Source of the DNA: Crocinitomicaceae bacterium
GTDB taxonomy: Bacteria > Bacteroidota > Bacteroidia > Flavobacteriales_D > Crocinitomicaceae
DNA: 51,146 bases
Assembly (NCBI GenBank): GCA_020832365.1
Contig: JAFIEX010000004.1
Span: 1 to 51,146, forward strand
Reading direction: 5' to 3'
The stretch's first letter is position 1, and every line of letters begins with the position of its first letter. This document shows, piece after piece, positions 10,801 to 45,681 of this stretch. The position numbers were made by a program, and so were the translations under genes. The notes beneath the pieces are model-generated. The model did no database searches. It worked only from the letters and a program-made list of their open reading frames with translations, and was not told where the DNA came from.

Positions 10801-11466
10801 ATTCCCTAAAGTAAAACCAGCTGGACCATACTCTATATCCCACTCTGTCTCTGTACCTCCTGCTGTCCAAGACAACTGAACCTCAGAACTAGACAGTAAA
10901 TTGGAAGAAAAATTAGTCACAAAAGGACAGGTAGATTCCTCAGCTGCAAGGAAATTATCCACGTAAAAAAAATAATCTCCTGAAAACCAAGTACCAGAAA
11001 GTCGCCAGCCGAATACTGAACCAGCGGGAACATCAGCCCCATCTATTGTAGATGTAAATGTAACACAACTAGTTGAAGGAACATGATTGGATTCATTAAT
11101 CGTATCATAATTAATGTAGGTGGCGCCTCCATCTACAGTATACTGAAGGATCATCTGACCAAAATTACCTGTTGTCGCAGGGTTCGGGAATGAAAAATCA
11201 ATGATTTTGTAATCAAAAGACACATCAATATCCGCACCATCTGCAATTGCGGTTGGTGAAGTTAGCTGCCCTGTGATTCCCGATGACCAAAAGTTCCTCC
11301 TTACAGACCGCGTATCACAGGGGTTTACATCTGTACTAAAAAAGCCTACCTCAGTCCAACCTGGAGGAATGGTTGTTGAGTTGAAGTCTTGCGAAATAAA
11401 CACTTGCGATTCAACATAATTGGAGAATAACAATGGAAGCATCAATAAAAGTAATAATCTTCTCAT
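7897..11466 (-). CDS. large secreted protein, FN3/GEVED/MAM-like domains with T9SS type A sorting domain
   Basis: 1,189-aa exported multi-domain protein. Starting at ATG 11466 it opens with a cleavable signal peptide (MRRLLLLLMLPLL...). Domain order by eye: a beta-rich MAM-like domain (about 25-175), FN3 (180-265), GEVED (WVDWNNDLVFDPSEQIF, 270-415), FN3 (418-510), GEVED (WVDWNQDLVFDPSEQVF, 515-655), FN3 (662-745), a second MAM-like domain (about 762-933), then Ig/PKD-like stretches. The last 78 residues form a type A T9SS sorting domain: ISVYPNPATSHLVI, then DINGRVV, then LTPGVYTLRL and a lysine-rich end. It is therefore expected to be exported by type IX secretion and attached to or released from the cell surface. 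No catalytic motif was seen; an adhesin or binding role is inference. A TTG start at 11487 was rejected. Confidence 0.92.
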   Translation of the reverse strand: MRRLLLLLMLPLLFSNYVESQVFISQDFNSTTIPPGWTEVGFFSTDVNPCDTRSVRRNFWSSGITGQLTSPTAIADGADIDVSFDYKIIDFSFPNPATTGNFGQMILQYTVDGGATYINYDTINESNHVPSTSCVTFTSTIDGADVPAGSVFGWRLSGTWFSGDYFFYVDNFLAAEESTCPFVTNFSSNLLSSSEVQLSWTAGGTETEWDIEYGPAGFTLGNGVVENTTNNPTNISGLIPHTSYDFYIRAVCGPGDLSLAVGPINVFTGHCLPIYTNTSDYLSLFQTTTAQQNVTYVNSSFPTNGLDNLVHSDTVSHFAGGSFDFTTNFEGGQNTIAIWVDWNNDLVFDPSEQIFVGTAPSSFPLNALNGTASIPAGVAQGDYIMRVRAIWSSVTPDPCTTFSWGSAIDLVLNVGNPPACPPPLDFDLVSTQFTSAIVEWDTLVTTSSFALEWGAPGFTPGTGTEIGASSTTATIDTITGLDPETNYDIYVIADCGADSSSWVGPLSIFTGYCVPSTSGTFSFITLFETSDATQNVVYTATAHPGSPGYLNLSASDTIKVEENETFNITAAFSSSQTTLIWVDWNQDLVFDPSEQVFVDQSPINVPINGVIQVPSTVTPGVYRLRVRTVLGTATSTLNTDPCQSLTSSNMILDYALEILPAPSCPRPSDLMVSNILPSSADVAWTAGGNETEWELQYGPAGFTPGTGTSVVTTNNPYALTGLDVDTEYDIYVRGICAVGDTSTWRGPENFMTPCNVFSAPFFEDFDDASVWISGTGFNNVGSEISSCWDRTTDPFQWGTRVGATSSTATGPSTDASGSGKYVFTSSNTGTNGQEARLWTPLIDLSSINDPRFQFSYHMFGSFVDSLNLFISNDNGATWDSLLTIVGMQQFNKTDAWKDTVLDLSNWANDTIIIEFYNIRRGINDNIAVDELKILPCVPTPGVDGEEDVCRLDVTVDLNTIITPAYNYGKWSFPSNETLINGSIMNVATLPSGTYEVFYITEGLCANDTTVATLNIFPPSSAGQNGTITVCRNEPINLFAGLNGNVDMGGTWYDPQDNPLPNSQPIASNIGGSFNFDYIVSNGVCPADTQFVEVIVLQSCDYLSIGEEKMGNISVYPNPATSHLVIANDANFESMTIEMLDINGRVVLVDNNSLMNNNQAEITIDHLTPGVYTLRLHNQEGQRTFKIVKQ

Positions 11467-11488
11467 AATCTTAATTTTAAAATTCAAT

Positions 11489-22365: not shown

Positions 22366-23454
22366 TTAAGTAACAAAATATTTCTTCATGTTAATGGTAA
22401 ATACGCGATTCAATCTACCGTTTTCATCCTGAAATAAAAAATATACATCTAAATCCAGGTCAGGGTTATCTTCAATAAAGATCATCGCTTGCTCCACCCC
22501 CATCGTCATAAAGGCTGTCGCATAGGCATCCGCCAAAGCTGCAGAAGAAGCAATTACTGTTACGCTCAGCAAGTTATGGTCAACAGGCCTTCCTGTTTTG
22601 GGATCAATCGTATGACTGTATTTTTTACCCTCTTTTTCATAAAATTTACGGTAGCTTCCAGAGGTGGCAATTCCTCTTCCATCTATAGCAAGATAATTTT
22701 CAATATTTCGTTGACCAAACCCATCATTTTCCTCGCTTGGTTCATCTATTCCAATTATCCAGCCCGTTCCATCCGCATTTTTGCCCTTTGCGAAAATTTC
22801 TCCTCCGACTTCAATAAAATAATGTTTATGCCCTTTTTCAGTTAAGAACTGGGCTAATTCGTCAACAGATTGTCCTTGAGCAATGGCATTGAAATCTATT
22901 TGAAATTTTGGGTGATGTTTTTTATAAATATCTCCTTGTATTTCATGATGTAAACCACTTTGAAAGCCAACATACTCAAGAATCTCATCTATTTCTTCAG
23001 TCTTTGGTGGTTCTTGCATATCCTTAAAAAATCCCCAAGCTTTAACCAACGGTAAAACCGAGGGATCAAAAGCACCAGCTGTTTTTTCAAAAACTGTATA
23101 ACTAATATTGTAGCAAGTTTCAAAAAAACGATTTTTTGGAATTTCAAAAACCTCTTCAGCTTCATTAAGTTTTGACAATAAAGATGAGGCGTCATAACCT
23201 GATAGCTCTAGGTCGAAATCCCTTAAAAACAAACTTATTTCTTTTGGCGAAACGAGTAACTTTGGCTCGCTTGTTTTAATCGTGAAAGTTGTTCCCTGCG
23301 TTGTTCCCTGCATAGTTTGCGCATCTACCAACCAGACGTTTTCATGTCTTTGATCGTCAAAGGGAATGACTTCCTCATTTGCAGCATCATCACTTTGGCA
23401 TTGAGCTAAAAGTAAGAGCAGCAGAACACTAATAATGTTTTTGCAATTTTGCAT
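22366..23454 (-). CDS. apbE: FAD:protein FMN transferase (lipoprotein)
   Basis: 362-aa enzyme that attaches FMN covalently to threonine of target proteins outside the inner membrane. The signal ends in LLAQC, a lipobox, so it is a membrane-anchored lipoprotein. Family features: QGTTFTIK at the start of the domain, DPSVLPLVKAWGF, DFNAIAQGQSVDELA, VGGEIFAKGKN, GIATSGSYRKFYEKEGKKYSHTIDPKTGRP region, and SSAALADAYATAFMTMG. Its start lies inside the last codons of the giant TPR gene (26-bp overlap), so translation is probably coupled. No flavinylated partner (NqrB/C, RnfG, FMN-bind) is visible in the window. Confidence 0.93.
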   Translation of the reverse strand: MQNCKNIISVLLLLLLAQCQSDDAANEEVIPFDDQRHENVWLVDAQTMQGTTQGTTFTIKTSEPKLLVSPKEISLFLRDFDLELSGYDASSLLSKLNEAEEVFEIPKNRFFETCYNISYTVFEKTAGAFDPSVLPLVKAWGFFKDMQEPPKTEEIDEILEYVGFQSGLHHEIQGDIYKKHHPKFQIDFNAIAQGQSVDELAQFLTEKGHKHYFIEVGGEIFAKGKNADGTGWIIGIDEPSEENDGFGQRNIENYLAIDGRGIATSGSYRKFYEKEGKKYSHTIDPKTGRPVDHNLLSVTVIASSAALADAYATAFMTMGVEQAMIFIEDNPDLDLDVYFLFQDENGRLNRVFTINMKKYFVT

Positions 23455-26400
23455 TTTCTGTCTCTTTGATCCACGCCGTTTCTGTTATAGGGCGCCCATT
23501 TTTACTGTAAGTTATTAAGTTCCTATTTTGAATTCTTAGATACACATCCCCTCTGCCATTTTGCACAACTATTCTCCTCGTTGTGATTTGCAATGGCAGC
23601 CCTTTGGCGTCACGTTTTACAAAATTTTCTTGACTCACTCCTTCTGGAAATTCAGCACCGAGGGTATTCGCAACAGCTTCAGTAAAAGCAACTTTATTCG
23701 TCATTAAATCCGCTAAAAGCACTTGTGTTTTTTGTGATTGTGTTTGATGTGCCAATCCCTTGTCTCTTGATTTTGCATCCAAATCTCCACCTTGTTTATC
23801 AATGACTTGATGGTTTTCTCCTGCAATAACCGCACGAGAGCTACCGGTTGCTTTCAACGCATCTTCAGCATCAGCTACCTTTGTTTTGTTAATCAATAGT
23901 TTTTCCGCATTACTCTCTGAGATTAATCTTGCCCTTCGCGCAATGTCATCTTCCTGTCTATCTAATTCCAATCTTAAGGCCAACAGATCGTCTTCCATGC
24001 CCATATTACCTTGCTCAATTCCAGCTCGAACATCTTCAAAATGCTGCATATTACCGCGAATATTTTCTGTTTTTCTGTTCAATAAATCAGATTTGTTGTT
24101 GGCATCTGCAATGAACATTCCATCAACTGCATCTACATTCTGCCAACGCCCCTCATCTTTTCCTTCTAGCGTGCTCAAATATTGTAATTGAGCTTCATTA
24201 ACGATTTGGTCAATTTCCAGAGATGCCGTAATCAACTCTTGGTTTTCTCTTATTTGTTGATCAGTCAATTTCTCTTTCACATTCATTATTCGTGATTGGA
24301 TCTCATTATGCGTCAGGGATTTTTCCTGATTACTAATTAGTTCTTGTAAAGCGGCATCTTGCACATCTTGAGATAAACCTTGAATTTTTCTGTAATTATC
24401 TTCGGTTGCATTAAATGTTTCCGAGATATAAAAATTATTGATGTCATCTATTACCGTTTCATTTTGTTTACGCATCACAACCGCTCTTTCGGCATCATTA
24501 TTAAGCTGATCCACTGTAACCACAATTTGATTGGCGTTATTCAAAGTAACATCTCTTGCTATTTCTCCTTGTTCTCTGCTTATTTGATTTGCTTTCAATT
24601 GCAAATCATCGACTCTGTCAGCATTAGCTAAATGTTTTGTACTTGCTGCCCTATTCAACTGTTCATAATCATCCAACATGTAAACAATTTGTTCATTGGC
24701 TCGCAACAATTCTGCATTTTCAAAAGTATTTTCTTGTAGTTTCTGATCTGCAATTCGGAATAAATCAGTTGAGACAGCTATCGCAGTTTGTTGCTGAGTG
24801 ACGGTATTTTCGAAATCCGCATTTGTTCTTAAGTTCTTAATTCTTTCTACCTCACTTTGCGAAGCTAATCTTTGTTCATTGTCTGACAAATTTAGTCTTT
24901 CAAAGTTTTCCTCATTGCTGGTTACTCTGGAAAGAATGTCTGCTTTCTGCATGGCTTGTCTATCTCGATCAGCTTGTTGTAATAGTGCTGCACCATCGAT
25001 AATAGAACCATCAATTCTTTCACCAAGGTCTTCAAGCGTAACATTTTGAACCATGGCAGGATTCAGTATTTGCTCAATTCGTTCAATGCGCATTTTGGGA
25101 TAAGGATCAGCAGCTCTTAAACCTAAAGCTCTTTGATATAAACCAAGTGCTTCATCATAAGATTCTTCCTCAAAATATTCGTCCGCCTTGTCCACAATTT
25201 TTTTATACCTCTCATCATCGGCACTTCTTTCCAATTCTTCTGCTCTCTCCACCGACTCATCTCTTTTTCTTAGCGCATAAGCATTATTTGGAATAACTTT
25301 TAGCGCCTCTTCATACTTATCTCTGGCATTAAGGTAATTTTCAGCATTAAAAAGTTCATCCGCAGCAGCAAGAATTTTATCAAACTGCGCTTGCTGTTCT
25401 TGTTGTGATTTTTGTTGTAAGGCTAAATCATTGATTATCGATTTTATTTCATCAACCTTTTGATTCGCATATTCATCCGTTGGCTTAATAACAATAGCAG
25501 CCTCAAAATCAGACAGTGCATCAGCATAATTTTCTTCATCCAATTTCGTCTTTCCGCTTTTAACAAGTGTCAAGAATTTTTGATCTTTTTCCTTTTGTTC
25601 GAATTCAGCTAATTTATCTTTTAGCTTTTCTATTTGATTTTGCGGATAGGTTTCTTCTGGTTTTAACTTTAAGGCTGATTCATATTCACTTTTGGCCAAC
25701 ATCCAATTTTCTTGTTCCATTGCTGCATCTGCCTTTGCGATAGCTTTTTCATAATTTTGCTCTAGATTTTGTTCCTTTTGTCTTTTGTCTAATTCATCTT
25801 GCAAAGCCTTCATTCTACCTTTGGGGTACTTCTCTTCCGGCAAGACATCGCTCGCTTCCTTGTAGGTCTTCAGCGCCTCTTCCAACTCAAATCTGTCAGC
25901 CAAAGCATCCGCAGCTTGAATTAAGTCTTTATACTTCTTTCGAATTTCTTGTTGTAATCGTTTTTCTTCTTCACTTTTTTCCTTATCTGCAATCAACGCA
26001 TTTATTTCATCAATTTCTTTTTGTGGTTTAGCATCATTTGGTTTAATTTTTTTAGCTTTTTCAAAAAGTGCTAAAGCCTCATCGAACTCTTCTGCTATTT
26101 TCTTTAACTTGGCATTTTTCATAGTAGCCTCAAATTGAGCCTCACGCTCTTTGTTAGCCTCGTATTTTTGATAAGCTTCTTGGCGTAAATCAATTGCATC
26201 TTTGTCATTCATGATGTACTTTAGCGCCTCATCAAATGCATCAACTGCATCTTTGTATTCTTCTTTTGCTAGCAAATCTTTACCTAGTTGCATCGCATTT
26301 GCAAATTTTTCTCGAGCAGCTTTTTCTTTCACTAGAATTTCTAATTCAAACTCCAATTCCTTTTTTAGTGTCTTTGCTTCCTCATTTCCAGGTTGTATGG

Positions 26401-29128
26401 CTAAAGCAGCATTTGTTTTTTCTAAAGCGCCAGAAAAATTCTCATCTGAACGCATTGCTTTAGCTTGATCGATTAATTCACTAAACGCAGCCGCTTGATT
26501 TTGAGAGGCTTGAAGCGCCTTTTGTTTTCCTTCAATTTCTTTCAATTTTTGTTCAACTTCTGGTGAAGCCATCACTTTCAAAGCAGCATTATAACTATTG
26601 ATTGCATTTTCCCATTCACTGTTTGCAAACGCTACATCACCTTCATTTTTCCATTTATTAAAAGTGTCTAATTCAGCTTTTTTGGTAGTCGCTTCATTTA
26701 ATTTTTCAGCAGCTGGCTTGTTTTGCGCATCTATAGTTAACACATCCTCAAAGGCTTGTATGGCTTTATCGTACGCTCTATTTCCTAAGGCAGTAGTGCC
26801 TTTAGCCAGAAGCGTTTCTATCTGTTTAGATTGGTCTTGAGCTGCCAGTGCCTCTTGCTCTAATTTTTGAATTTCAGCTATTCTGCTCGTTGCATAGGCG
26901 TCTTCTGCCTTAATTTTAAGGGCTTCTTCATATTTTGAAGGAGCATCAGACCAATTCTGATTATCAAAAGCAGCATCCGCCAATTTAATAGCTTCTTGGT
27001 AAGCCTTTTGAATCGCTTCTTGGGCTTCTTGGTCAGCCAACAACTTTACTTTCTCTTCAATCTTTTGAATTTTAAGCGCAATATTATTGTCTTCTTTGAT
27101 TTTTTGTGCTTCTTCATAAGCGGCTTTTGCAGCTTGCCACTTTTCCTCTTTGAAGAGTTGGTCACCAAGCGCTACTTTTTCTTGCCAAGTTTTTTCAGTA
27201 CCTAGTTGTTCCTCGATTCGCTTTTTAGCATCTATCGCTTTTTGCTCATCAGATTTCAAAGCAATAATGGACTGGTAATCTTTCAAAGCACCAGACCAAT
27301 TCTCATCAGCCTCTTTCTTAGCTGCCTGGGTATATAAATTGGAAATATTCGCTAATAATTCCTGCTCTTTTTGCTGTTTCTCTAATTGTTCTTGAGCGTC
27401 TTTGATGCGTTGCGTTACATGATTATCATCAGGGATTAAATTATTTGCTTCTTCGTATTTAGTAATCGCCTCTTTCCAGTTTTTTTCTTTGAACGAAGCA
27501 TCTGCTTGTTTTACTAAATTATTGAAAGCAGTCATTTGTTCGGCATAAGCTTTTTCTTTTTCAATGGCCGCCACAGCCCTATCTTTTCCTTCAGTGGCTT
27601 CTTTATTAGAGGAAGACAATCCCAAAACCTCTTGGTATTTCGCTAAAGCTTCTTGCCATTTTTTTTGTTCTTCAGCATTTTTTCCTGCCGCTAAAAGGCT
27701 TTCAATTTTCTCTTTTTGAGCCAGTTCGGCCTCCATTTCTTTCAGCTTATCTTGAACACTTTTAATTTGTTCCTTTGGGTAATTCTCATCAGGCTTTATT
27801 TTACTCGCCTTTTGGTAACTTGTTAAGGCGTTATTCCAATCCTCTTTAGACTTTAATTCATCAGCAGATTTAATAGCCGCTTGGTATTCTTCCTCTACCT
27901 TCTTTGCTGCCTCTAATGCAGCAATTTTTTCTTGCGCCAACTTTTTACGTTCTTTTGGGTAAGTTGCAGCACTTTCAAAAGTGATGGCCTCTTGGTACTT
28001 TGCTATGGCCTCTTCAAAATTTTCTTGATCGAAGAATGCGTCAGCAGCAGCGATTGCTTCGTCATATTTACGTTTCTTTTCTTTGGCTTCTTCCTCTGCT
28101 TTTAACTTATTATCCATTTCTTCCAATCGCTTCTTGGGGTGCTGTTCATCTGGATAAAGAAAAAGTGCTCGCTGGTATTTATCTCTGGCTGCTTGCAAAC
28201 TATTTTGATCATAAAATCGATCAGCCATCTCAATGAGTTCATCATACTCCTTTTTCTTCTTTTGTTCTTTAACTATTTTGCGAATTTCATCAATTTGGTC
28301 TAAAGGATAATTTTCACCTGGCTTTTCATCGGCTGCTTCGTAAAATTTATCAATAGCTTTTTCGTAATCCTTATTTTTTTTAAAATTCTCCGCCGCTGCT
28401 ATCAAATTATTATATTTTTCATCGGCTTGTTGGTTCAACAAGGCCTCTTTTCTTTTTGCCTGCAAAATGTCCTCAATTTCTAGTATTCGCGTATTAGGAT
28501 GTGTTTCCATCTCCTTACCTTTGATGGAAATTGCAGCCTCATACTTCTTCAAAGCACCTTCATAGTCTTGCTTATTAAAAGCAGCATCGCCCTCTTGAAT
28601 TAACTTGTTGAATTGTGCATCACCCTCTTTGGCGTCTTTGTCAGCTTTTGCTAATGTTGTTTCAATTTTATCTTTCATCTTTTCATAGACATTCCTATCC
28701 CAGTCCATCACAAGTTTAGTAGGGTGGTAAGTCCATATTACAACAGGTTCTTTATTCAAAAAAGAAAAGTTCGCGTTGGGTCGATCTGCAAAAAGTTCTA
28801 TATCAATTGGAGGAAAAATTCTTCCACCAGAAGGCAAATCTTCTTCATTGATGCCGTTGGCATCAATCTTCATCATTTTGTTAACATAACCAGAAAGAGA
28901 ATACTTTATTTCATAGCTTTGGTTAATCGGCAAGTTCACACTATACTTTCCGTTGGCTGCTGCTGTAGTTGAAAAAACTTCTGAACCTTTAACATAGGCC
29001 GTAACTTTTACTCCACCGAGTTTTTTACCTGTGTCAAAATCTTTTAGCTGGCCCTCGAAAGTAAAATCTTGCGACCAACCAAAACAACTGAATATCAGAA
29101 TAATAACAAAAAATATACTTGTGCGCAT
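23429..29128 (-). CDS. giant secreted TPR-like repeat protein (about 20 units)
   Basis: 1,899-aa exported protein. From ATG 29128 it begins with a signal peptide ending near CFGWSQ, then a carboxypeptidase-regulatory-like beta domain (about 22-110: DFDTGKKLGGVKVTAY). About 20 tandem units of roughly 60 residues follow (about 172-1355), each with the pattern AxxxADxxFxxxxWxxAxxxYxxAxxxxPxxxYPxxxI, a TPR-like helical pair plus a charged linker helix. The C-terminal 540 residues are mostly coiled-coil, ending in a basic beta stretch (GRGDVYLRIQNRN) with no T9SS sorting signal. Likely a periplasmic or envelope scaffold; function is not known. A TTG start at 29140 was rejected. The 3' end overlaps apbE by 26 bp. 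Confidence 0.85.
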   Translation of the reverse strand: MRTSIFFVIILIFSCFGWSQDFTFEGQLKDFDTGKKLGGVKVTAYVKGSEVFSTTAAANGKYSVNLPINQSYEIKYSLSGYVNKMMKIDANGINEEDLPSGGRIFPPIDIELFADRPNANFSFLNKEPVVIWTYHPTKLVMDWDRNVYEKMKDKIETTLAKADKDAKEGDAQFNKLIQEGDAAFNKQDYEGALKKYEAAISIKGKEMETHPNTRILEIEDILQAKRKEALLNQQADEKYNNLIAAAENFKKNKDYEKAIDKFYEAADEKPGENYPLDQIDEIRKIVKEQKKKKEYDELIEMADRFYDQNSLQAARDKYQRALFLYPDEQHPKKRLEEMDNKLKAEEEAKEKKRKYDEAIAAADAFFDQENFEEAIAKYQEAITFESAATYPKERKKLAQEKIAALEAAKKVEEEYQAAIKSADELKSKEDWNNALTSYQKASKIKPDENYPKEQIKSVQDKLKEMEAELAQKEKIESLLAAGKNAEEQKKWQEALAKYQEVLGLSSSNKEATEGKDRAVAAIEKEKAYAEQMTAFNNLVKQADASFKEKNWKEAITKYEEANNLIPDDNHVTQRIKDAQEQLEKQQKEQELLANISNLYTQAAKKEADENWSGALKDYQSIIALKSDEQKAIDAKKRIEEQLGTEKTWQEKVALGDQLFKEEKWQAAKAAYEEAQKIKEDNNIALKIQKIEEKVKLLADQEAQEAIQKAYQEAIKLADAAFDNQNWSDAPSKYEEALKIKAEDAYATSRIAEIQKLEQEALAAQDQSKQIETLLAKGTTALGNRAYDKAIQAFEDVLTIDAQNKPAAEKLNEATTKKAELDTFNKWKNEGDVAFANSEWENAINSYNAALKVMASPEVEQKLKEIEGKQKALQASQNQAAAFSELIDQAKAMRSDENFSGALEKTNAALAIQPGNEEAKTLKKELEFELEILVKEKAAREKFANAMQLGKDLLAKEEYKDAVDAFDEALKYIMNDKDAIDLRQEAYQKYEANKEREAQFEATMKNAKLKKIAEEFDEALALFEKAKKIKPNDAKPQKEIDEINALIADKEKSEEEKRLQQEIRKKYKDLIQAADALADRFELEEALKTYKEASDVLPEEKYPKGRMKALQDELDKRQKEQNLEQNYEKAIAKADAAMEQENWMLAKSEYESALKLKPEETYPQNQIEKLKDKLAEFEQKEKDQKFLTLVKSGKTKLDEENYADALSDFEAAIVIKPTDEYANQKVDEIKSIINDLALQQKSQQEQQAQFDKILAAADELFNAENYLNARDKYEEALKVIPNNAYALRKRDESVERAEELERSADDERYKKIVDKADEYFEEESYDEALGLYQRALGLRAADPYPKMRIERIEQILNPAMVQNVTLEDLGERIDGSIIDGAALLQQADRDRQAMQKADILSRVTSNEENFERLNLSDNEQRLASQSEVERIKNLRTNADFENTVTQQQTAIAVSTDLFRIADQKLQENTFENAELLRANEQIVYMLDDYEQLNRAASTKHLANADRVDDLQLKANQISREQGEIARDVTLNNANQIVVTVDQLNNDAERAVVMRKQNETVIDDINNFYISETFNATEDNYRKIQGLSQDVQDAALQELISNQEKSLTHNEIQSRIMNVKEKLTDQQIRENQELITASLEIDQIVNEAQLQYLSTLEGKDEGRWQNVDAVDGMFIADANNKSDLLNRKTENIRGNMQHFEDVRAGIEQGNMGMEDDLLALRLELDRQEDDIARRARLISESNAEKLLINKTKVADAEDALKATGSSRAVIAGENHQVIDKQGGDLDAKSRDKGLAHQTQSQKTQVLLADLMTNKVAFTEAVANTLGAEFPEGVSQENFVKRDAKGLPLQITTRRIVVQNGRGDVYLRIQNRNLITYSKNGRPITETAWIKETENAKLQKHY

Positions 29129-29239
29129 CAACTTCTCCAACGTAATCTTAAGTAGTTGGTTACGAAAATCGTACCATTAACTCTTGTTTAGCTGTCAAAT
29201 ATCGTGAAAATAACTGTAAATTCGATATTTTTTTTCAAC

Positions 29240-39655: not shown

Positions 39656-39684
39656 AAAAAAGATTGCGTAAAGCAATCTTTTTT
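39656..39684. terminator. bidirectional terminator (original terminator of tRNA-Leu before insertion)
   Basis: AAAAAAGATTGC and its exact complement GCAATCTTTTTT flank the 5-nt loop GTAAA. It terminates the M23 gene rightwards. Leftward-facing it would have terminated tRNA-Leu before the 5.9-kb element came between them. Confidence 0.88.
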
Positions 39685-39702
39685 AATTAGTGCCCAGGAC
39701 TG
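39681..39702. repeat. left attachment-site copy (22-bp direct repeat)
   Basis: Perfect 22-bp direct repeat of 45589-45610, containing TGCCCAGGACTG from the acceptor/T-arm end of tRNA-Leu. Downstream bases (AACCATAATG) resemble the tRNA continuation with a gap. It marks the left edge of the integrated element. Confidence 0.92.
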
Positions 39703-39821
39703 AACCATAATGTAGCTAACTTAAACCTCATTAAATTAGTATCAAATACCACTAAAAACAAGCATTAAAGCCACTTTTGAGAGATTAACAAAATTTGCCT
39801 AAATCGGTTTAAATTAGAATA

Positions 39822-39852
39822 TGTGGGGAAAATGTGGGGAAAATGTGGGGAA
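39822..39852 (+). repeat. three TGTGGGGAA repeats, left end of element
   Basis: Copies begin at 39822, 39833 and 39844, exactly 11 bp apart, which puts them on one face of the helix. The same unit appears twice at the right end. They lie directly before the int -7 element, so recombinase binding here would also affect int expression. Likely arm-type recombinase sites. Confidence 0.75.
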
Positions 39853-39857
39853 AACAT

Positions 39858-39865
39858 TATATTTG
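39858..39865 (+). promoter_or_regulatory. -7 element of the integrase gene
   Basis: TATATTTG, exact TAnnTTTG match, 19 nt before the int ATG at 39885. The -33 position falls inside the TGTGGGGAA repeats and has no TTG. Confidence 0.5.
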
Positions 39866-39884
39866 TCATAACAAATTATCAATT

Positions 39885-41174
39885 ATGGCAACAGTTAAAT
39901 ATTTCATCAAAGGAAAGGGAGAAGCAACAACCATTTACACACGTTTAAGAGATGGCCGAGAAACCGATATAACAACGTCCACAGGTTACACAATTAACCC
40001 CGAGTTCTGGAGTGACAAGAAAGGAGAACCAAAACAAGTTGCTGGAAACAAAGACAAGTTAAATTTATCCAACGATTTAAGAACTTTAAAGAATTTCATC
40101 ATTAACAAGTTGAATGAAGACAAGGGAACAACCTCTATTGATAAAGATTGGTTAAACCATGTTGTTGCAGTCTATAAGAACCCATCTATTGACAGTAAAG
40201 AAATTTTATTGATGGATGCTATAAAAAACTATCAATCGGAATTGAAAACAAAGTTTAACCCGAAAACAGGAAAACTAATTTCAAACTATACTCTCAAAAA
40301 TTATAATACTACCTTAATGAGATTGGAGAAATTCGAGAAATTCAAGAAGTACCAATATTTTTTGCATGAAGTAGATTTAACGTTTCATTCCGATTATAAG
40401 AAGTTCGCCACAACAAAATTAGGTTTATCCATTAACAGTATAGGCAAGGACATAAAGCAAATTAAAACCGTTTGTCTGGATGCCAGAGACAGAGGTTACG
40501 ACATTAACAAGCAAGCAGAGAGCCGAAAATTTACGATGCAATCAGAACCAACCTTATTTGTGACATTAACAGAAAGCGAGATTAACACTATCAAAGGACA
40601 TGAGTTTAAACAAAACTACCTAAGTAATGCGAGAGATTGGTTAATAATTGGATGCTGGACAGGTTGTCGAGTTGGCGACCTCATGCAGTTGGACAACAAT
40701 AATATCATTCACAACAACAAAGGACAGAAGTTTATCCGATACACCCAGAGCAAAACAGGGAAACAAGTCGATTTACCAATACACCCACAAGTTAATGAGG
40801 TGCTGGAGAGGTTAGGGAGTTTTCCAAGACCAATATCATTTGTTAATTTCAATCTGTATATCAAAGAAGTTTGTAAACTTGCTGGATTAACGCAATTAGT
40901 CAAGGGAACACGACAGAACCCAAGCACCCATAAAAAAGAAACAGGAATGTTTGAGAAATGGGAGTTAATTAAGTCGCATACGTGCCGACGATCATTCGCC
41001 ACTAATCATTATAACAAGTTGTCGAATAAATTAATCATGCGAGTAACAGGACACGCCACCGAAAAGATGTTATTAAACTACATAGGAGAGACAGAAACCG
41101 ACCATTTGAACGACTTCATGAATGTTTGGGATAATGACAAGGAAAATGAAGTTAAATCAATCAAAACAGCTTAA
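39885..41174 (+). CDS. tyrosine recombinase / integrase
   Basis: 429-aa site-specific recombinase of the Bacteroidetes type: an N-terminal arm-binding domain (TVKYFIKGKGEATTIYTRLR, GYTINPEFWSDKK), a SAM-like core-binding domain (about 110-220) and a catalytic domain. Catalytic residues: R in GCWTGCRVGDLMQL, K in YTQSKTGKQVDLP, H-x-x-R in SHTCRRSFATNHY, GH in RVTGHATEKM and the nucleophile Y in LLNYIGETE. It should integrate and excise the element at tRNA-Leu. The ATG 39885 fits the family N-terminus; a longer frame would run back through the TGTGGGGAA repeats. Confidence 0.93.
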   Translation: MATVKYFIKGKGEATTIYTRLRDGRETDITTSTGYTINPEFWSDKKGEPKQVAGNKDKLNLSNDLRTLKNFIINKLNEDKGTTSIDKDWLNHVVAVYKNPSIDSKEILLMDAIKNYQSELKTKFNPKTGKLISNYTLKNYNTTLMRLEKFEKFKKYQYFLHEVDLTFHSDYKKFATTKLGLSINSIGKDIKQIKTVCLDARDRGYDINKQAESRKFTMQSEPTLFVTLTESEINTIKGHEFKQNYLSNARDWLIIGCWTGCRVGDLMQLDNNNIIHNNKGQKFIRYTQSKTGKQVDLPIHPQVNEVLERLGSFPRPISFVNFNLYIKEVCKLAGLTQLVKGTRQNPSTHKKETGMFEKWELIKSHTCRRSFATNHYNKLSNKLIMRVTGHATEKMLLNYIGETETDHLNDFMNVWDNDKENEVKSIKTA

Positions 41175-41299
41175 TGTTTAAATTTAAAATAACTATGTTA
41201 GGAACGTCGCAATCTTAAAACCGACAAGGGAATAAATTTTTATCCACAAAACACAAGCGAAATTGTTAAATTCTTTCTGAAATAAAATAGGCAAATTTC

Positions 41300-41319
41300 C
41301 AAAGTTAGATGTAACTTTG
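41300..41319. repeat. 8-bp inverted repeat in the element control region
   Basis: CAAAGTTA and TAACTTTG are perfect complements around GATG. No T-run follows, so an operator is more likely than a terminator. Confidence 0.5.
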
Positions 41320-41433
41320 AAACGCCAAATGAGGAAAACCGCAAACTACAGCAATAGAATGCGGTCTACTTGAAACAATGTGATTACCTCAATTTTTATC
41401 TTTGTTGATGCAAATATACACACTATTATTTAA

Positions 41434-41471
41434 TACACAAGTTTTTTTTATAAACTTTTTTAAATTGTGTA
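41434..41471. repeat. inverted repeat TACACAA...TTGTGTA
   Basis: Arms of 7 bp, extendable to about 10 with one bulge, around a T/A-rich centre, 74 bp upstream of the first HTH gene. Possible repressor site. Confidence 0.35.
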
Positions 41472-41544
41472 GCACAAACCACCGAGGTAAAATCATTTTT
41501 CAATAGGGCTTCTAAGGCATATTTATTAACTAAAATTTTTAAGT

Positions 41545-41712
41545 ATGTTATGTACTAAAGAAGTTGCATCTATTTTAGGATGCACAACAAGAAACGTTGC
41601 CAGATTGGTAACTATTGGAAAACTAAAGCCTATACACAGGCATAACAGATTTTTCCTTTTCGATGAGAAAGAAGTATTAACCTTTAAATCAATTCGAGAT
41701 GGAAAACAGTAA
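41545..41712 (+). CDS. 55-aa helix-turn-helix protein (AlpA/excisionase-like)
   Basis: Short gene not reaching usual length cut-offs. The protein begins MLCTKEVASILGCTTRNVAR and continues with a winged-type segment containing HRHNRFFLFDEKEVL, the pattern of MerR-like HTH_17 excisionase-type proteins (helix-turn-helix, then R-x-x-x-F strand). Its last 14 bases overlap the start of the next HTH gene, so both are translated together. A role in excision or in control of the operon is likely from family and place. Confidence 0.75.
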   Translation: MLCTKEVASILGCTTRNVARLVTIGKLKPIHRHNRFFLFDEKEVLTFKSIRDGKQ

Positions 41713-41998
41713 TTTAACCCACAACGATTTGCCAAAAGCAGTTGGTTTGTTATTGGAACGATTGGAGCGAATAGAAGCGAGTTTAACCGCTCAAAATTCA
41801 AAGGTAGAACAAACACCTCATCAGGAGAGTGAAACGTTCCTAACGAGAAAGGAAACCGCCCAATTTTTTAAGATTAGTTTATACACCGTCCACGATTGGA
41901 TGAACAAAGGTATAATCAAACCTTATAAGGCTGGAAACAGAACGTATTTCAAGCAATCGGAGTTAGTCGAAGTTCTAAATAATTCTAATAGTCAGTAA
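41699..41998 (+). CDS. 99-aa helix-turn-helix protein (excisionase-like)
   Basis: HTH_17-family DNA-binding domain in the C-terminal half: FLTRKETAQFFKISLYTVHD then MNKGIIKPYKAGNRTYFKQS. The N-terminal half is a helix (LLLERLERIEASL) that may dimerise. Such proteins act as excision factors or regulators in integrative elements. It overlaps the previous HTH gene by 14 bp and is followed with a 1-bp gap by the 54-aa gene. Confidence 0.85.
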   Translation: MENSNLTHNDLPKAVGLLLERLERIEASLTAQNSKVEQTPHQESETFLTRKETAQFFKISLYTVHDWMNKGIIKPYKAGNRTYFKQSELVEVLNNSNSQ

Positions 41999-41999
41999 C

Positions 42000-42164
42000 A
42001 TGGTATTAAGAAAAAAGGGAGCGCAACAACGCACCCCCCAAACAAATTATCAATGTTCTGGCAAAAGACCACCGATAACGCAAAAATACAAAATATTTGC
42101 CTTATATCAATGGCTAAGAGGTTGGAGCATTGCAGTATTTAATCTACTAAAAACGATATTGTAA
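42000..42164 (+). CDS. 54-aa small basic protein of the element (previously uncalled)
   Basis: An ATG-started frame of 54 codons fills the gap between the HTH gene and the helicase gene precisely: it begins 1 bp after the HTH stop, and its stop TAA overlaps the helicase ATG as TAATG. This double coupling is the main evidence for a real gene. The protein has a very basic N-terminus (MVLRKKGAQQRTPQ) and a hydrophobic or amphipathic C-terminus (ALYQWLRGWSIAVFNLLKT), so it might bind DNA or membrane. No family recognised. Confidence 0.6.
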   Translation: MVLRKKGAQQRTPQTNYQCSGKRPPITQKYKIFALYQWLRGWSIAVFNLLKTIL

Positions 42165-43744
42165 TGAGTGAACAAAATATATTTTTAGGACAATCCCCCC
42201 AGAAAATAGACAAATCAAAGTTAAGGATTAAGAAGCCTATTTATTTAAAAGATAGTGCCTTTGCTTATGATTTATGGGAGTGGAAATATAACAACAATTC
42301 AAAGAAGTTTGAAATTAGTTCTTTGTATTACCAAGGAATGAGGGAATTTATTAATTCGTTGGATTATTATAAAAGACAGTTGTCAGATAAAGACCATATT
42401 TATATTAAAGAGGTTGACAATGTAATACAAGAAATTACAAAAGATGATCTTAATGATGAGGTACGTAATTATGTAGATAGCATTAGACAACCTATCAAAT
42501 TTACATACAATGATACAGAATATTCGATACCGTGCGAAACGTTCAAGAATATCTATCTAAAACAGCATCATAATATAACAAATGATAAGTGGTTAACCAA
42601 TATTCAGAAGCATGAGAAACCCATATTAAAAGATACTGAAACAAGTTCTTTCTTTGTGTTTAATAATGGACTTATTGAAGTCACAAAAGACAATATCGAG
42701 ATGAAAAACTTAGATGAGTTGAAAGGTGTTTGTGTATGGAAAGACCAAGTAATAAACCATTATTTTACATACATTGAAGACCGCACAGGAATAGAGGGAG
42801 AATATGAAAAATTCATTCATAACGTATGTAATAAAGAGCCTCAAAGAGTTCTGGCATTATGTAGTGCAATAGGCTATTTGTTACATAATCATTTTGACCG
42901 TACAAAAGGACAAGCAGTCATATTTTATGATGAAGCCTTAACAGACAGTAATAACCCCCAGGGGGGAACAGGAAAAGGCGCAACCGTTCAAGGAATAAAG
43001 CAAATGAGAAAAACCGCAAAAATTGATGGTAAAAACTATAAATCAGACGACAAATTCAAATGGAGCAATGTAAACCCAGACACACAATTAGTTTGGATTG
43101 ATGAAACTAATAAGAATTTTGATTTTAAAGATATGTTTTCAAACTTAACAGATGGCTGGCAAGTGGAACGTAAATTTCAAAATAAATTCGACATTGCACC
43201 AGAAGACAGTCCAAAGGTTTTAATTTGTTCAAATTCCATATTAGAAAATAAAGGAACAAGTAATAAGCGACGACAGTATGTAATTGAATTTTCTGACTTC
43301 TATTCAAGTAAGATTATCACAGGTACTGAAGAGCCAATAAAAGATGAACACGGAACTTTGTTTTCAGATAAATGGAGCATTGAAGAATGGAATAAATTTT
43401 ATTCCTTCATGCTGGAATGTTCGCAACTTTATTTGTCACAAGGTCTATGTGATTATGAGCGTAAAAATGTAGGCTTTAATTTACTCAAACAACAAACTTG
43501 CGACGAGTTCATGGAGTACATTATAAGCACACCACCACCAACAAACATTGATTTTATCATGAAAGATTTATTTGATGAATTTAAGTCATGTTATTTAGGT
43601 GAGGACAGTAAAACTACTCAAAGAACATTCACTAATTGGATAAAAAAATATTGTGCGACTGAAAGCCTTGAATTTATCAGAGTAGGGAAGTCAAACGGAA
43701 ACCCAATTTATCAAATTAGGGAACAAGGGAACAAGCTACAATAA
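42164..43744 (+). CDS. SF3-type replicative helicase (phage/plasmid primase-helicase family)
   Basis: 526-aa protein. The C-terminal half is a P-loop ATPase: Walker A NPQGGTGKGATVQGIKQM (about residues 264-281), Walker B TQLVWIDETNKNFD (about 305-318) and a sensor motif SPKVLICSNSIL, with NKRRQYVIEFSDFYS after it; this is the order of D5/P4-like and DUF5906-type helicases of phages and plasmids. The N-terminal half (1-230) shows no catalytic primase motif that I can identify. It should unwind the element's DNA during replication; with the polymerase gene just downstream the two would make a replication pair. Its start is coupled to the 54-aa gene. Confidence 0.85.
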   Translation: MSEQNIFLGQSPQKIDKSKLRIKKPIYLKDSAFAYDLWEWKYNNNSKKFEISSLYYQGMREFINSLDYYKRQLSDKDHIYIKEVDNVIQEITKDDLNDEVRNYVDSIRQPIKFTYNDTEYSIPCETFKNIYLKQHHNITNDKWLTNIQKHEKPILKDTETSSFFVFNNGLIEVTKDNIEMKNLDELKGVCVWKDQVINHYFTYIEDRTGIEGEYEKFIHNVCNKEPQRVLALCSAIGYLLHNHFDRTKGQAVIFYDEALTDSNNPQGGTGKGATVQGIKQMRKTAKIDGKNYKSDDKFKWSNVNPDTQLVWIDETNKNFDFKDMFSNLTDGWQVERKFQNKFDIAPEDSPKVLICSNSILENKGTSNKRRQYVIEFSDFYSSKIITGTEEPIKDEHGTLFSDKWSIEEWNKFYSFMLECSQLYLSQGLCDYERKNVGFNLLKQQTCDEFMEYIISTPPPTNIDFIMKDLFDEFKSCYLGEDSKTTQRTFTNWIKKYCATESLEFIRVGKSNGNPIYQIREQGNKLQ

Positions 43745-43749
43745 AAAAA

Positions 43750-43781
43750 GGGGGGGGTAATTATTTTTACATATACCCCCC
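43750..43781 (+). repeat. G8 ... C6 inverted run after the helicase gene
   Basis: Eight Gs and six Cs, 18 nt apart, can pair into a short GC-only stem between the helicase stop and the polymerase start. No T-run follows, so it is not a classical terminator; it may reduce polymerase expression or stabilise the upstream RNA. Confidence 0.45.
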
Positions 43782-43831
43782 ATATTTAGATAGATGTTGT
43801 TCCCTTAATCCCTGAAATAATAACTACAAAA

Positions 43832-45058
43832 ATGCAAAGTTCTGAATATCAACTAAATAAGTTTGTAGAATATATTCGCACTAAACAATTTATGTTAAAC
43901 GCACTAAAAGGAGTTGATCCAAATACATTTGTTTTTATCAGTATGAACGAGATTAAAAGTCGATTTTTAGTCAATCCGCATGAAGACATTAAGAACCTCG
44001 TACAAGCTGGAGAAATTGAAGTTCAAGAAAATCACAATTCTAAAAGACATAAATACACGTCCTACAAAGTTTTGAAAGCTGGCTACTATGATCTAAACTT
44101 ATTAGAGCCTAAAGGCAAGGAGTTAACCACCACCACCGAAAGAATGATGAATATTTTAAAAGATGTATCATTAAAAAAAGATAGTCCATCTACACAGTAT
44201 TTTAATTCGTTTCTGGAGTACAAAAACAACCTATTAAGGACATTTTTTAATGTGGATGTATTTAGCGGACGAGTACATACACCAATAACAAGCTTTAAAG
44301 GGGAGTACAGGAAAAATATTTTAATTGATGAGTTGGAGACAATATCTATTGATGTAGTGACGATGCAACCGCTTTTATTAGGGAGTATATTAAAATCAAA
44401 GATTGGAGAAAATGAGTATTCAAATTGGATTGATACAGGCGAAGACATTTATTTGATGCTACAATCAAAAGCGAAATTATCCACCAGAGACGAAGCCAAA
44501 AAACGATTTTTTGAAATACTGTTTTCACGCCCAAATGATAGCCTTAAAAAGATGTTTGGCAATAGTACATGGATTGAATGGATTAATGAGTTTAAACGAC
44601 AACCATTCACGCCCAACCCCCATACATTAGAAAAAAATCATTCCAATTTAGCATGGTTACTACAAACAAGTGAGGTTACCATAATGACAGAGGTCTGGAG
44701 TTGCTTGTTAGATGCTGGAGTTAAATTTTTATCGGTGCATGATGAGGTTATTGTCAAACATACAGATTATAAGAAAGCAAAGGATATTTTTAGTTCTGTA
44801 TTATCAAAACACCTAACATTTTTCAAATTATCCGATAAACAAATAACAATCGAAAAACAATCGAATAACAGTCATAAAACAGTCATAGCACCACCACAAG
44901 ATAAGGTAAAAAAGGACACTATAAAAAAGACACCCCTACCAAAGAAAGGAGAACTATATTCAATCAATGAACTGAAAACTAAATTCCAACTATCGGATGA
45001 GTTTATTAAGCAAAATTTTGATGAGTTTTATCACAATATAGGATGGATTAATATTTAA
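43832..45058 (+). CDS. minimal family-A DNA polymerase-like protein
   Basis: 408-aa protein carrying the three signature motifs of family A polymerases in order. Motif A: SIDVVTMQPLLLGSIL with catalytic D at 174. Motif B (O helix): STRDEAKKRFFEILFSRP, where R219, K223 and F227 have the spacing of R754, K758 and F762 of E. coli Pol I; the usual Y-G is F-S. Motif C: LSVHDEVIVKH with D304-E305. No 3'-5' or 5'-3' exonuclease domain is present. The steric-gate glutamate after motif A is Q179. The first 120 residues are probably a winged-helix or linker. It resembles the short polymerases of mobile elements and viruses related to PolA (TV-Pol type). The assignment is from motifs by eye. Confidence 0.78.
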   Translation: MQSSEYQLNKFVEYIRTKQFMLNALKGVDPNTFVFISMNEIKSRFLVNPHEDIKNLVQAGEIEVQENHNSKRHKYTSYKVLKAGYYDLNLLEPKGKELTTTTERMMNILKDVSLKKDSPSTQYFNSFLEYKNNLLRTFFNVDVFSGRVHTPITSFKGEYRKNILIDELETISIDVVTMQPLLLGSILKSKIGENEYSNWIDTGEDIYLMLQSKAKLSTRDEAKKRFFEILFSRPNDSLKKMFGNSTWIEWINEFKRQPFTPNPHTLEKNHSNLAWLLQTSEVTIMTEVWSCLLDAGVKFLSVHDEVIVKHTDYKKAKDIFSSVLSKHLTFFKLSDKQITIEKQSNNSHKTVIAPPQDKVKKDTIKKTPLPKKGELYSINELKTKFQLSDEFIKQNFDEFYHNIGWINI

Positions 45059-45062
45059 GATC

Positions 45063-45419
45063 ATGAGTAAAAATTTACCGAAAAATACGGATGAGAACGG
45101 ACGAGACGACAAAGGACGTTTTACAGATGGCAACAAAGGGAAACCCAAGGGAGCAACCAATAAGACGACGAAAGATATTCGCGAATTTATAACCAACTTT
45201 CTGAATGATAAAGCCTATGAAATACCGCATATCTGGAACTCATTAGACGACAAGGACAAAGCAACGTTATTTTTGCATCTTTGTAAATTGGTGCTACCTA
45301 AAACAACAACCGAGCAACAAACACCTAAAGAGCTTCAAATATTCCATGGTATTGATTTAAGCGTAAAAGAGGAAACACCAACCCCAGTTTGGAAAGTCAT
45401 AGACGGTTCAAAAAAATAG
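45063..45419 (+). CDS. 118-aa protein with DUF5681 / terminase small subunit-like N-terminus
   Basis: The N-terminus reads GRDDKGRFTDGNKGKPKGAT, very close to the GRFxxGxxGNPKGRP signature of DUF5681 proteins found with phage small terminases and in mobile elements. A helical segment follows (TKDIREFITNFLNDKAYEIP), then a disordered proline/threonine tail. It follows the polymerase gene by 4 bp. A packaging or DNA-binding role is possible but not shown by the sequence. Confidence 0.65.
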   Translation: MSKNLPKNTDENGRDDKGRFTDGNKGKPKGATNKTTKDIREFITNFLNDKAYEIPHIWNSLDDKDKATLFLHLCKLVLPKTTTEQQTPKELQIFHGIDLSVKEETPTPVWKVIDGSKK

Positions 45420-45447
45420 AGATGATGCGTATAGCGAATATATTCCT

Positions 45448-45510
45448 ATCTGTTACGCACGTATAAGAGTGTTTAGAAATCATAATATGCTACAATCTGT
45501 TACGCACGTA
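45448..45510 (+). repeat. pair of 16-bp direct repeats at the right end of the element
   Basis: ATCTGTTACGCACGTA occurs at 45448-45463 and 45495-45510, 47 bp apart (start to start). The core TTACG-CA-CGTA is an inverted repeat, so each copy could bind a dimer. Possible excisionase or replication-initiator sites. Confidence 0.6.
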
Positions 45511-45530
45511 AAAAGACCTTTTTTCTGAAT

Positions 45531-45550
45531 TGTGGGGAATATGTGGGGAA
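45531..45550 (+). repeat. two TGTGGGGAA repeats, right end of element
   Basis: Copies begin at 45531 and 45542, again exactly 11 bp apart and in the same orientation as the three left-end copies. Matches expectation for recombinase arm sites at both ends. Confidence 0.75.
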
Positions 45551-45552
45551 AC

Positions 45553-45587
45553 AAAAAACCCAACTAACTGTAAAACAATCAATTGGG
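45553..45587 (-). terminator. terminator supplied to tRNA-Leu by the element
   Basis: On the minus strand a 12-pair stem (CCCAATTGATTG with CAGTTAGTTGGG, several G-U pairs) and loop TTTTA are followed by six T residues. It lies 12 nt past the tRNA 3' end and replaces the original terminator now at 39656-39684. Confidence 0.8.
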
Positions 45588-45588
45588 C

Positions 45589-45610
45589 TTTTAATTAGTG
45601 CCCAGGACTG
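45589..45610. repeat. right attachment-site copy (22-bp direct repeat)
   Basis: Same 22 bp as 39681-39702; here it includes the 3' end of the intact tRNA-Leu gene (acceptor strand and discriminator base). Confidence 0.92.
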
Positions 45611-45681
45611 GACTCGAACCAGCATGCACTTAGTGCACCACCCCCTCAAGATGGCGTGTCTACCAATTTCACCACCTGGGC
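45599..45681 (-). tRNA. tRNA-Leu (anticodon GAG)
   Basis: 83-nt tRNA with acceptor pair GCCCAGG/CCTGGGC, discriminator A, D-arm GGTGGTGAAATTGGTAGACA, anticodon stem CCATC/GGTGG around the loop TTGAGGG (anticodon GAG), a long class II variable arm (GGTGCACTAAGTGCATGC region) and T-loop TTCGAGT. CCA is not encoded. It is the insertion site of the element. Confidence 0.95.

Follow-up and report, generated by a model that had tools for sequence, protein, structure and literature searches.

The locus described here raises the question of what a DNA polymerase of 408 aa does inside a small integrative element, and whether it starts DNA strands or only extends them. The gene lies in a window of 51,146 bp (the whole stretch of DNA that was analysed: contig JAFIEX010000004.1 of the Crocinitomicaceae assembly GCA_020832365.1). 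It begins with an ATG codon, and its product (P0001) had been described in an initial annotation, made from the letters of the window, as a minimal PolA-like polymerase with altered motifs. The residues named in that annotation are all found where it had placed them: D174 and Q179 in motif A (DVVTMQP), R219-x3-K223-x3-F227 in the fingers, F231-S232 after the fingers motif and V302-H303-D304-E305-V306 in motif C. Their conservation in the family is beyond that expected by chance.

When P0001 was queried alone, no match supporting a polymerase was found in Pfam, PHROG, NCBIfam or the PDB sequences. The search with PF00476 (DNA_pol_A) that the initial annotation had proposed was only partly successful: P0001 was without a match, while its orthologue from the genome G310 matched over residues 154-245 (E-value: 5.7e-5), though under the Pfam cut-off, and PF00476 was matched by one of 21 TV-Pols (the family to which P0001 is assigned below). 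A comparison of TV-Pol and PolA profiles with hhalign placed motifs A, B and C in register (E-value: 0.0011, probability 20%), pairing D174 with the PolA catalytic Asp and Q179 with the PolA Glu. A profile of the 21 TV-Pols retrieved a single marginal family-A chain from the PDB sequences (9qhs, E-value: 0.49).

The predicted structure is more informative with respect to fold. An AlphaFold2 model of P0001 was built from a 49-row alignment (pLDDT 82.3, pTM 0.68), and comparison with Klenow and T7 polymerase, as had been suggested, gave a family-A fold. The top Foldseek match in the PDB is T7 DNA polymerase (E-value: 4.4e-7). With VIA-align, all 50 of the matches listed are family-A DNA polymerases, aligned over approximately model residues 96-340; the best of these is the apicoplast polymerase 5dkt (Z 15.9, 236 residues, 3.2 Å), and Klenow (1d8y) aligns with a Z of 15.0. 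In a viral structure library, the top matches are 400-residue phage proteins (E-values: 2.4e-14 and 4.2e-13), the second of which is named "Putative DNA polymerase I", and the replication protein V6BPG7 of Zamilon virophage also matches (E-value: 2.5e-5). P0001 shares palm and fingers with T7 DNA polymerase and the Klenow fragment of Pol I, and it differs from both in the lack of an exonuclease (no such domain was matched in Pfam or by structure comparison), in its reduced thumb and in its motif A. The initial annotation had allowed room only for palm and fingers. This does not hold for the model, which adds an N-terminal domain of approximately 95 residues, a putative reduced thumb (helices 100-111 and 122-130), and a partly disordered C-terminal tail. 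The N-terminal domain is helix-helix-helix-strand-strand in the full model (block pLDDT 72-92); when modelled separately it reached a pLDDT of 55, too poor for searching, and a winged-helix reading of it is consequently a guess. As modelled, the gene product is a pared-down family-A polymerase in which palm and fingers are accompanied by a short thumb and a small N-terminal domain.

Relatives were collected as 75 non-redundant sequences from 135 ORF hits at an E-value of 1e-8, following removal of sequences shorter than 300 aa or with more than half of their 5-mers in common with a row already kept. In the alignment of these relatives, R147, D174 and H303 are present in 75 of 75 sequences and K223, D304, E281 and Y207 in 74, while position 219 is R or K in 73. 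Q179 is also present in 73 of the 75, but 47 of these rows came from a scan that required QP, such that only the remaining 28 are informative for this position. Among these 28 members, the steric-gate position 179 is Q in 26 and H in two; at position 231 there are 15 F and 12 Y, and at position 232 there are 15 S and eight G. The "altered motifs" of the initial annotation are therefore present but are not alterations specific to this gene: within the family, Gln is the rule at the steric gate, and F-S is common behind the fingers motif. What is peculiar to the window protein and its two nearest relatives is the motif C sequence HDE, in contrast to the HDS found in 67 of the 75. These two relatives, from the genomes G310 and G191, are 38% and 45% identical to the window protein, and in a quick tree the three form one clade with a support of 100 and a long stem.

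Single-sequence searches with P0001 had a shorter reach. No relative was found in viral_contigs or genome_contigs, and the one match among plasmids was attributed to chance. In phage records 12 sequences matched, four of them with an E-value below 1e-3, and among 59 genomes (the window's own included) ten matched at E-values up to 1, of which G024 and G048 were kept. ORFs from loci L004 and L005 were rejected as TV-Pol relatives because their sequences were unrelated on reading. Three uncultured phage records of 635-735 kb (L014, L015 and L016; LR756502, LR756501 and LR745206) carry TV-Pol ORFs of approximately 400 aa.

Based on fold, motifs, relatives and context, P0001 is best placed in the TV-Pol family, described in 2008 (Iyer, Abhiman and Aravind, PMC2579912). 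The same four lines of evidence bear out the initial annotation of a divergent, exonuclease-free family-A polymerase of TV-Pol type in a mobile element. As in that family, P0001 has a minimal family-A core with two catalytic Asp residues in the palm (D174 and D304; fold Z 15.9), an invariant Arg in the hairpin that precedes motif A (R147, the presumed counterpart of the Pol I Arg), R-x3-K in the fingers (R219/K223) and a length within 400-600 aa with no nuclease domain, and its gene is linked to those for a D5-like helicase and an integrase in a mobile element with att ends. It departs from the published description in that the helicase gene precedes the polymerase gene and is unfused to it, and in that the N-terminal region in the full model contains two strands rather than being all-helical. 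A primase-polymerase role was predicted for TV-Pols in 2008, and Bacteroidetes members were already among those listed (PMC2579912). The TV-Pol kind itself is thus known, and the window polymerase adds one member to it. Going by the available part of the 2020 SCCmec report (PMC7581432), CCPol was the sole member characterised to its authors' knowledge, and beyond it the family is almost without experimental characterisation.

The element that encodes P0001 is inserted at a tRNA-Leu gene (Table 1). Its 25 bp att repeats are identical at 24 positions, with one copy spanning the 3' end of tRNA-Leu(gag), and an 18 bp core of the repeat occurs exactly twice in the 3.13 Mb genome, both times at the ends of the element. 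Five of the six copies of TGTGGGGAA in the window lie just inside these ends. The integrase ORF is listed from a GTG within the TGTGGGGAA repeats, and an ATG at 39885 is the likelier start. The GGTGK of the helicase Walker A motif is invariant across nine helicases, and the G191 orthologue of the helicase matches DUF5906 (E-value: 1.6e-7); no primase domain was found within the window helicase. The element is present in a single copy, no cargo was recognised in it, and the host genome encodes its own DNA polymerase I and DnaG. With an integrase, two HTH genes, a helicase, a polymerase and one small ORF, this is close to the smallest setting for a TV-Pol.

Table 1. Features of the integrative element (positions in the window; E-values follow profile names)
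Feature	Position	Strand	Basis or remark
Integrative element, 5,933 bp, outer edge to outer edge of att repeats	39681..45613		24/25 direct repeat at ends
attL repeat	39681..39705		Repeat family D10
Three TGTGGGGAA repeats, probable integrase arm sites (left)	39822..39852	+	Predicted role
Tyrosine integrase	39834..41174	+	PF00589 2.6e-8, PF13102 3.9e-8
Excisionase-like HTH protein 1	41545..41712	+	HTH_17 1.5e-6, phrog_4691 excisionase 9e-8
Excisionase-like HTH protein 2	41699..41998	+	HTH_17 1.4e-11, phrog_66 3.4e-9
D5-like (DUF5906-type) helicase, 526 aa, Walker A GGTGKG	42164..43744	+	phrog_28855 3.5e-54
GGGGGGGGTA...TACCCCCC inverted repeat, candidate origin / helicase site	43750..43781		Directly after helicase gene; predicted function
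TV-Pol, family-A polymerase	43832..45058	+	ORF, motifs (R147; motif A D174-Q179; fingers R219/K223; motif C H303-D304), predicted fold
Small ORF, 118 aa	45063..45419	+	phrog_8771 E 0.0018 only
Two copies of CTGTTACGCACGTA, perhaps excisionase or replication sites	45450..45510	+	
Two TGTGGGGAA repeats, probable integrase arm sites (right)	45531..45550	+	Predicted role
attR repeat	45589..45613		Overlaps 3' end of tRNA-Leu(gag) 45598-45681 (-)

Several smaller observations concern the element and its surroundings. The product of the 118 aa ORF between the TV-Pol gene and attR is basic, and this ORF was not seen behind the TV-Pol gene in G310 or G191. The two CTGTTACGCACGTA copies near attR are 47 bp apart, and there are no others in the window. 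In a search for an empty site, uvrC was recovered from 27 of 30 genomes and ARAGORN was run on 17 of these 27 loci; neither the tRNA 3' end nor the M23 gene was found in the uvrC neighbourhoods (approximately 1.5 kb on each side) of 26 relatives, so no empty site is demonstrable there. The window also contains very long ORFs at 23429-29140 (-) (1903 aa) and 7897-11487 (-) (1196 aa).

The helicase-TV-Pol block recurs, together with an integrase gene and two HTH genes, in the flavobacterial genomes G310 and G191. G310 is a Flavobacteriales MAG (CANCQX010000015.1 carries the same genes as G310:C15) from the same family as the window genome. Its element encodes an integrase, a further ORF, two HTH proteins, a helicase (44% identical), a TV-Pol, a DNA methylase and a restriction-like ORF. 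The G191 element encodes an integrase, one ORF, two HTH proteins, a helicase (45% identical), a TV-Pol and restriction-modification genes that, judged by their sequences, read as type I. Such cargo fits a self-replicating accessory island. In two related elements, at loci L132 and L129, restriction-modification genes adjoin the helicase-TV-Pol block. No paper on these flavobacterial elements was recognised among the titles and abstract openings retrieved for TV-Pol, DUF6371 and combinations of these terms.

The gene behind the helicase varies among related loci. We considered a set of 12 distinct stand-alone helicase ORFs (420-600 aa, E-value of 1e-15 to the helicase profile) and defined the slot as the next gene on the same strand within 400 bp after the helicase. 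The slot holds a TV-Pol in three of the 12 (the window, G310 and G191), although two of these helicases were ascertained, the window's own and that of G191, which was reached via its TV-Pol. It holds DUF6371 with Zn_ribbon_16 in three (G185, G336 and G369, the G369 gene being cut by the contig end), an AEP-type primase gene, encoding BT4734-like_N either with PriCT_2 or alone, in two (G390 and G354), an exonuclease-bearing PolA in three (G648, G553 and G437, with PolA identity for G648 and G437 taken from the read sequence and alignment A6) and another gene in one (G659). In G543 the TV-Pol gene precedes the helicase gene instead. Among six longer helicases scanned for domains, some are fused to Prim-Pol, BT4734_N/PriCT_1, exonuclease or exonuclease-PolA domains. 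Modules consisting of an AEP prim-pol and a D5 helicase are a known type of replication module; their priming enzymes take the same operon place as the TV-Pol, behind or fused to related helicases, but have an unrelated catalytic fold.

One of these partners was examined as a possible TOPRIM primase. For DUF6371 (with E198 and D242-x-D244, G185 numbering, as the candidate TOPRIM residues), searching solved structures by sequence yielded no meaningful match, and hhalign against the host DnaG gave a probability of 1.3% with the wrong register. As these tests failed, it is counted only as a Zn-ribbon/DUF6371 partner.

A helicase tree of 19 rows unites the helicases with TV-Pol, BT4734_N or DUF6371 partners and one partnerless helicase in a clade (support 100/100), within which each partner group is a subclade (87/97, 96/98 and 100/100). 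The branching of the TV-Pol group differs slightly between trees: G310 and G191 pair in the helicase tree, versus the window and G191 in the TV-Pol tree (support 82). Displacement of one partner by another is the argument used for TV-Pols by Iyer and colleagues (PMC2579912), and here it occurs behind one narrow helicase clade. The slot swaps suggest a primase or primase-polymerase role for the TV-Pol and fit the self-priming that the initial annotation had raised as a possibility; since an exonuclease-bearing PolA also occupies the slot, it could equally well be one for polymerases.

A short DNA element, GGGG-TA…TACCCC, recurs directly after the helicase gene whatever the partner, which suggests that the site belongs to the helicase. 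TACCC or GGGTA is found within 100 nt of the helicase stop codon in nine of nine clade members (the G390 copy, at nt 81, falls within the following gene), compared to 7 of 90 other ORF ends at the same loci (Fisher P = 6.6e-9 for a word picked post hoc) and none of nine helicases outside the clade (one of them with 88 nt). GGGGTA is present in eight of the nine clade members. In 500 dinucleotide shuffles, the best 6-mer with at least three G/C never reached eight and the best 6-mer of any composition did so in four. Removal of the three TV-Pol elements leaves a weaker result of five in six, equalled by G/C-rich words in 2 of 500 shuffles and by 6-mers of any composition in 74 of 500. When folded as ssDNA, the inverted repeat is no better than shuffled sequences in the window (z -0.46), with values of -0.61 for G310 and -3.52 for G191; a stable hairpin was therefore rejected as the recurring feature, and what recurs is the short word GGGGTA/TACCCC. 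The origins of SaPI and SCCmec are situated immediately downstream of rep or cch2, and Cch2 binds there (PMC7581432, available part). The window repeat sits likewise and is probably the origin of the element.

From the computed fold, motifs, family, element ends, operon order and partner replacement, we infer as the likely, though far from certain, reading that the TV-Pol starts strands at an origin opened by the helicase of the excised element, and that the host replicase extends them. The integrase would excise the element, and the D5-like helicase would load on the GC-rich inverted repeat behind its own gene and open the origin. Strand synthesis would then be started by the TV-Pol on the single-stranded DNA thus exposed and be completed by the host replicase.

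The precedent for priming by a family-A polymerase is CCPol-MP of SCCmec. In the part of that report available (PMC7581432), CCPol-MP primes, priming requires the OB-fold partner MP, and CCPol alone only extends primers; CCPol retains the steric-gate Glu (E174) and uses dNTPs, and Klenow can extend CCPol-MP primers. The window element resembles CCPol-MP/Cch2 and the PolA-SSB primases, as described in the accessible portions of PMC7581432 and PMC10061031, in that a family-A polymerase with a reduced thumb adjoins a helicase in an integrative element. In CCPol-MP, however, the OB-fold partner gene lies between the polymerase and helicase genes, which are in reversed order, whereas the corresponding interval in the window is 87 bp with no ORF, and no OB-fold gene was recognised within the element. 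The steric gate also differs, with Q179 in place of the CCPol Glu. As a guess, the N-terminal 95 residues of P0001 are the natural candidate for the job of MP.

The same arrangement could be explained by primer extension only, with the host DnaG as primase and the TV-Pol as a small private replicase that copies the element. The slot does hold a plain polymerase, the exonuclease-bearing PolA, in three related loci, CCPol without MP behaves in this way (PMC7581432, available part), and the genome encodes a DnaG. We regard this explanation as rather unlikely, as this slot is elsewhere filled by AEP-type primase genes following helicases that belong to the same clade, Prim-Pol or BT4734_N/PriCT_1 domains are fused to other members of the helicase family, and the lack of a proofreading domain and the short thumb better suit a primer maker. 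A different proposal, in line with the relaxed sugar choice raised as a possibility in the initial annotation, is that the primers made by the TV-Pol consist of RNA or of mixed nucleotides: ribonucleotides would be admitted because the steric-gate Glu is replaced by Gln and the Tyr that this Glu contacts by Phe. Q179 and F231 are indeed frequent (26 and 15, respectively, of the 28 members found without requiring Q), and CCPol, which uses dNTPs, keeps the Glu (PMC7581432, as above). Gln is nevertheless approximately as bulky as Glu, so the steric gate may still work, Tyr is also common at position 231 (12 of 28), and the TV-Pol and CCPol literature, to the extent that it was accessible, contained no sugar assay of a Q-type TV-Pol; ribonucleotide use is thus an unlikely property.

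That the gene is part of a decaying remnant, or serves another role such as repair in an inactive island, would be in keeping with a small, single-copy element with no recognised cargo, but we consider it very improbable. The catalytic residues are all kept, three separate elements have intact frames, with 38-45% identity to the window protein, and the integrase, HTH and helicase genes are intact between near-perfect att repeats.

Priming by the TV-Pol at the helicase-opened origin can be extended to a more specific model, which is conceivable but doubtful. P0001 would be a single-chain family-A primase-polymerase without an SSB partner, in which the N-terminal domain holds the template as MP does and the Gln/Phe gate begins strands, possibly with ribonucleotides, at an origin behind the helicase gene. 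Helicase and origin would form the fixed core of a flavobacterial element family in which the priming enzyme has been swapped among at least three unrelated kinds. Because there is a defined candidate origin and partners have been swapped naturally behind one helicase clade, priming, sugar choice and origin use are directly testable.

In three class-level relatives (loci L175, L176 and L178), a helicase of the same family is followed by an exonuclease-bearing PolA, with a separate TV-Pol nearby, and in L176 and L178 the helicase-PolA pair is preceded by a DUF3127 gene (a possible OB fold). These sets resemble the Pol-SSB-helicase sets described for Bacillota and are found here in relatives of the window genome.
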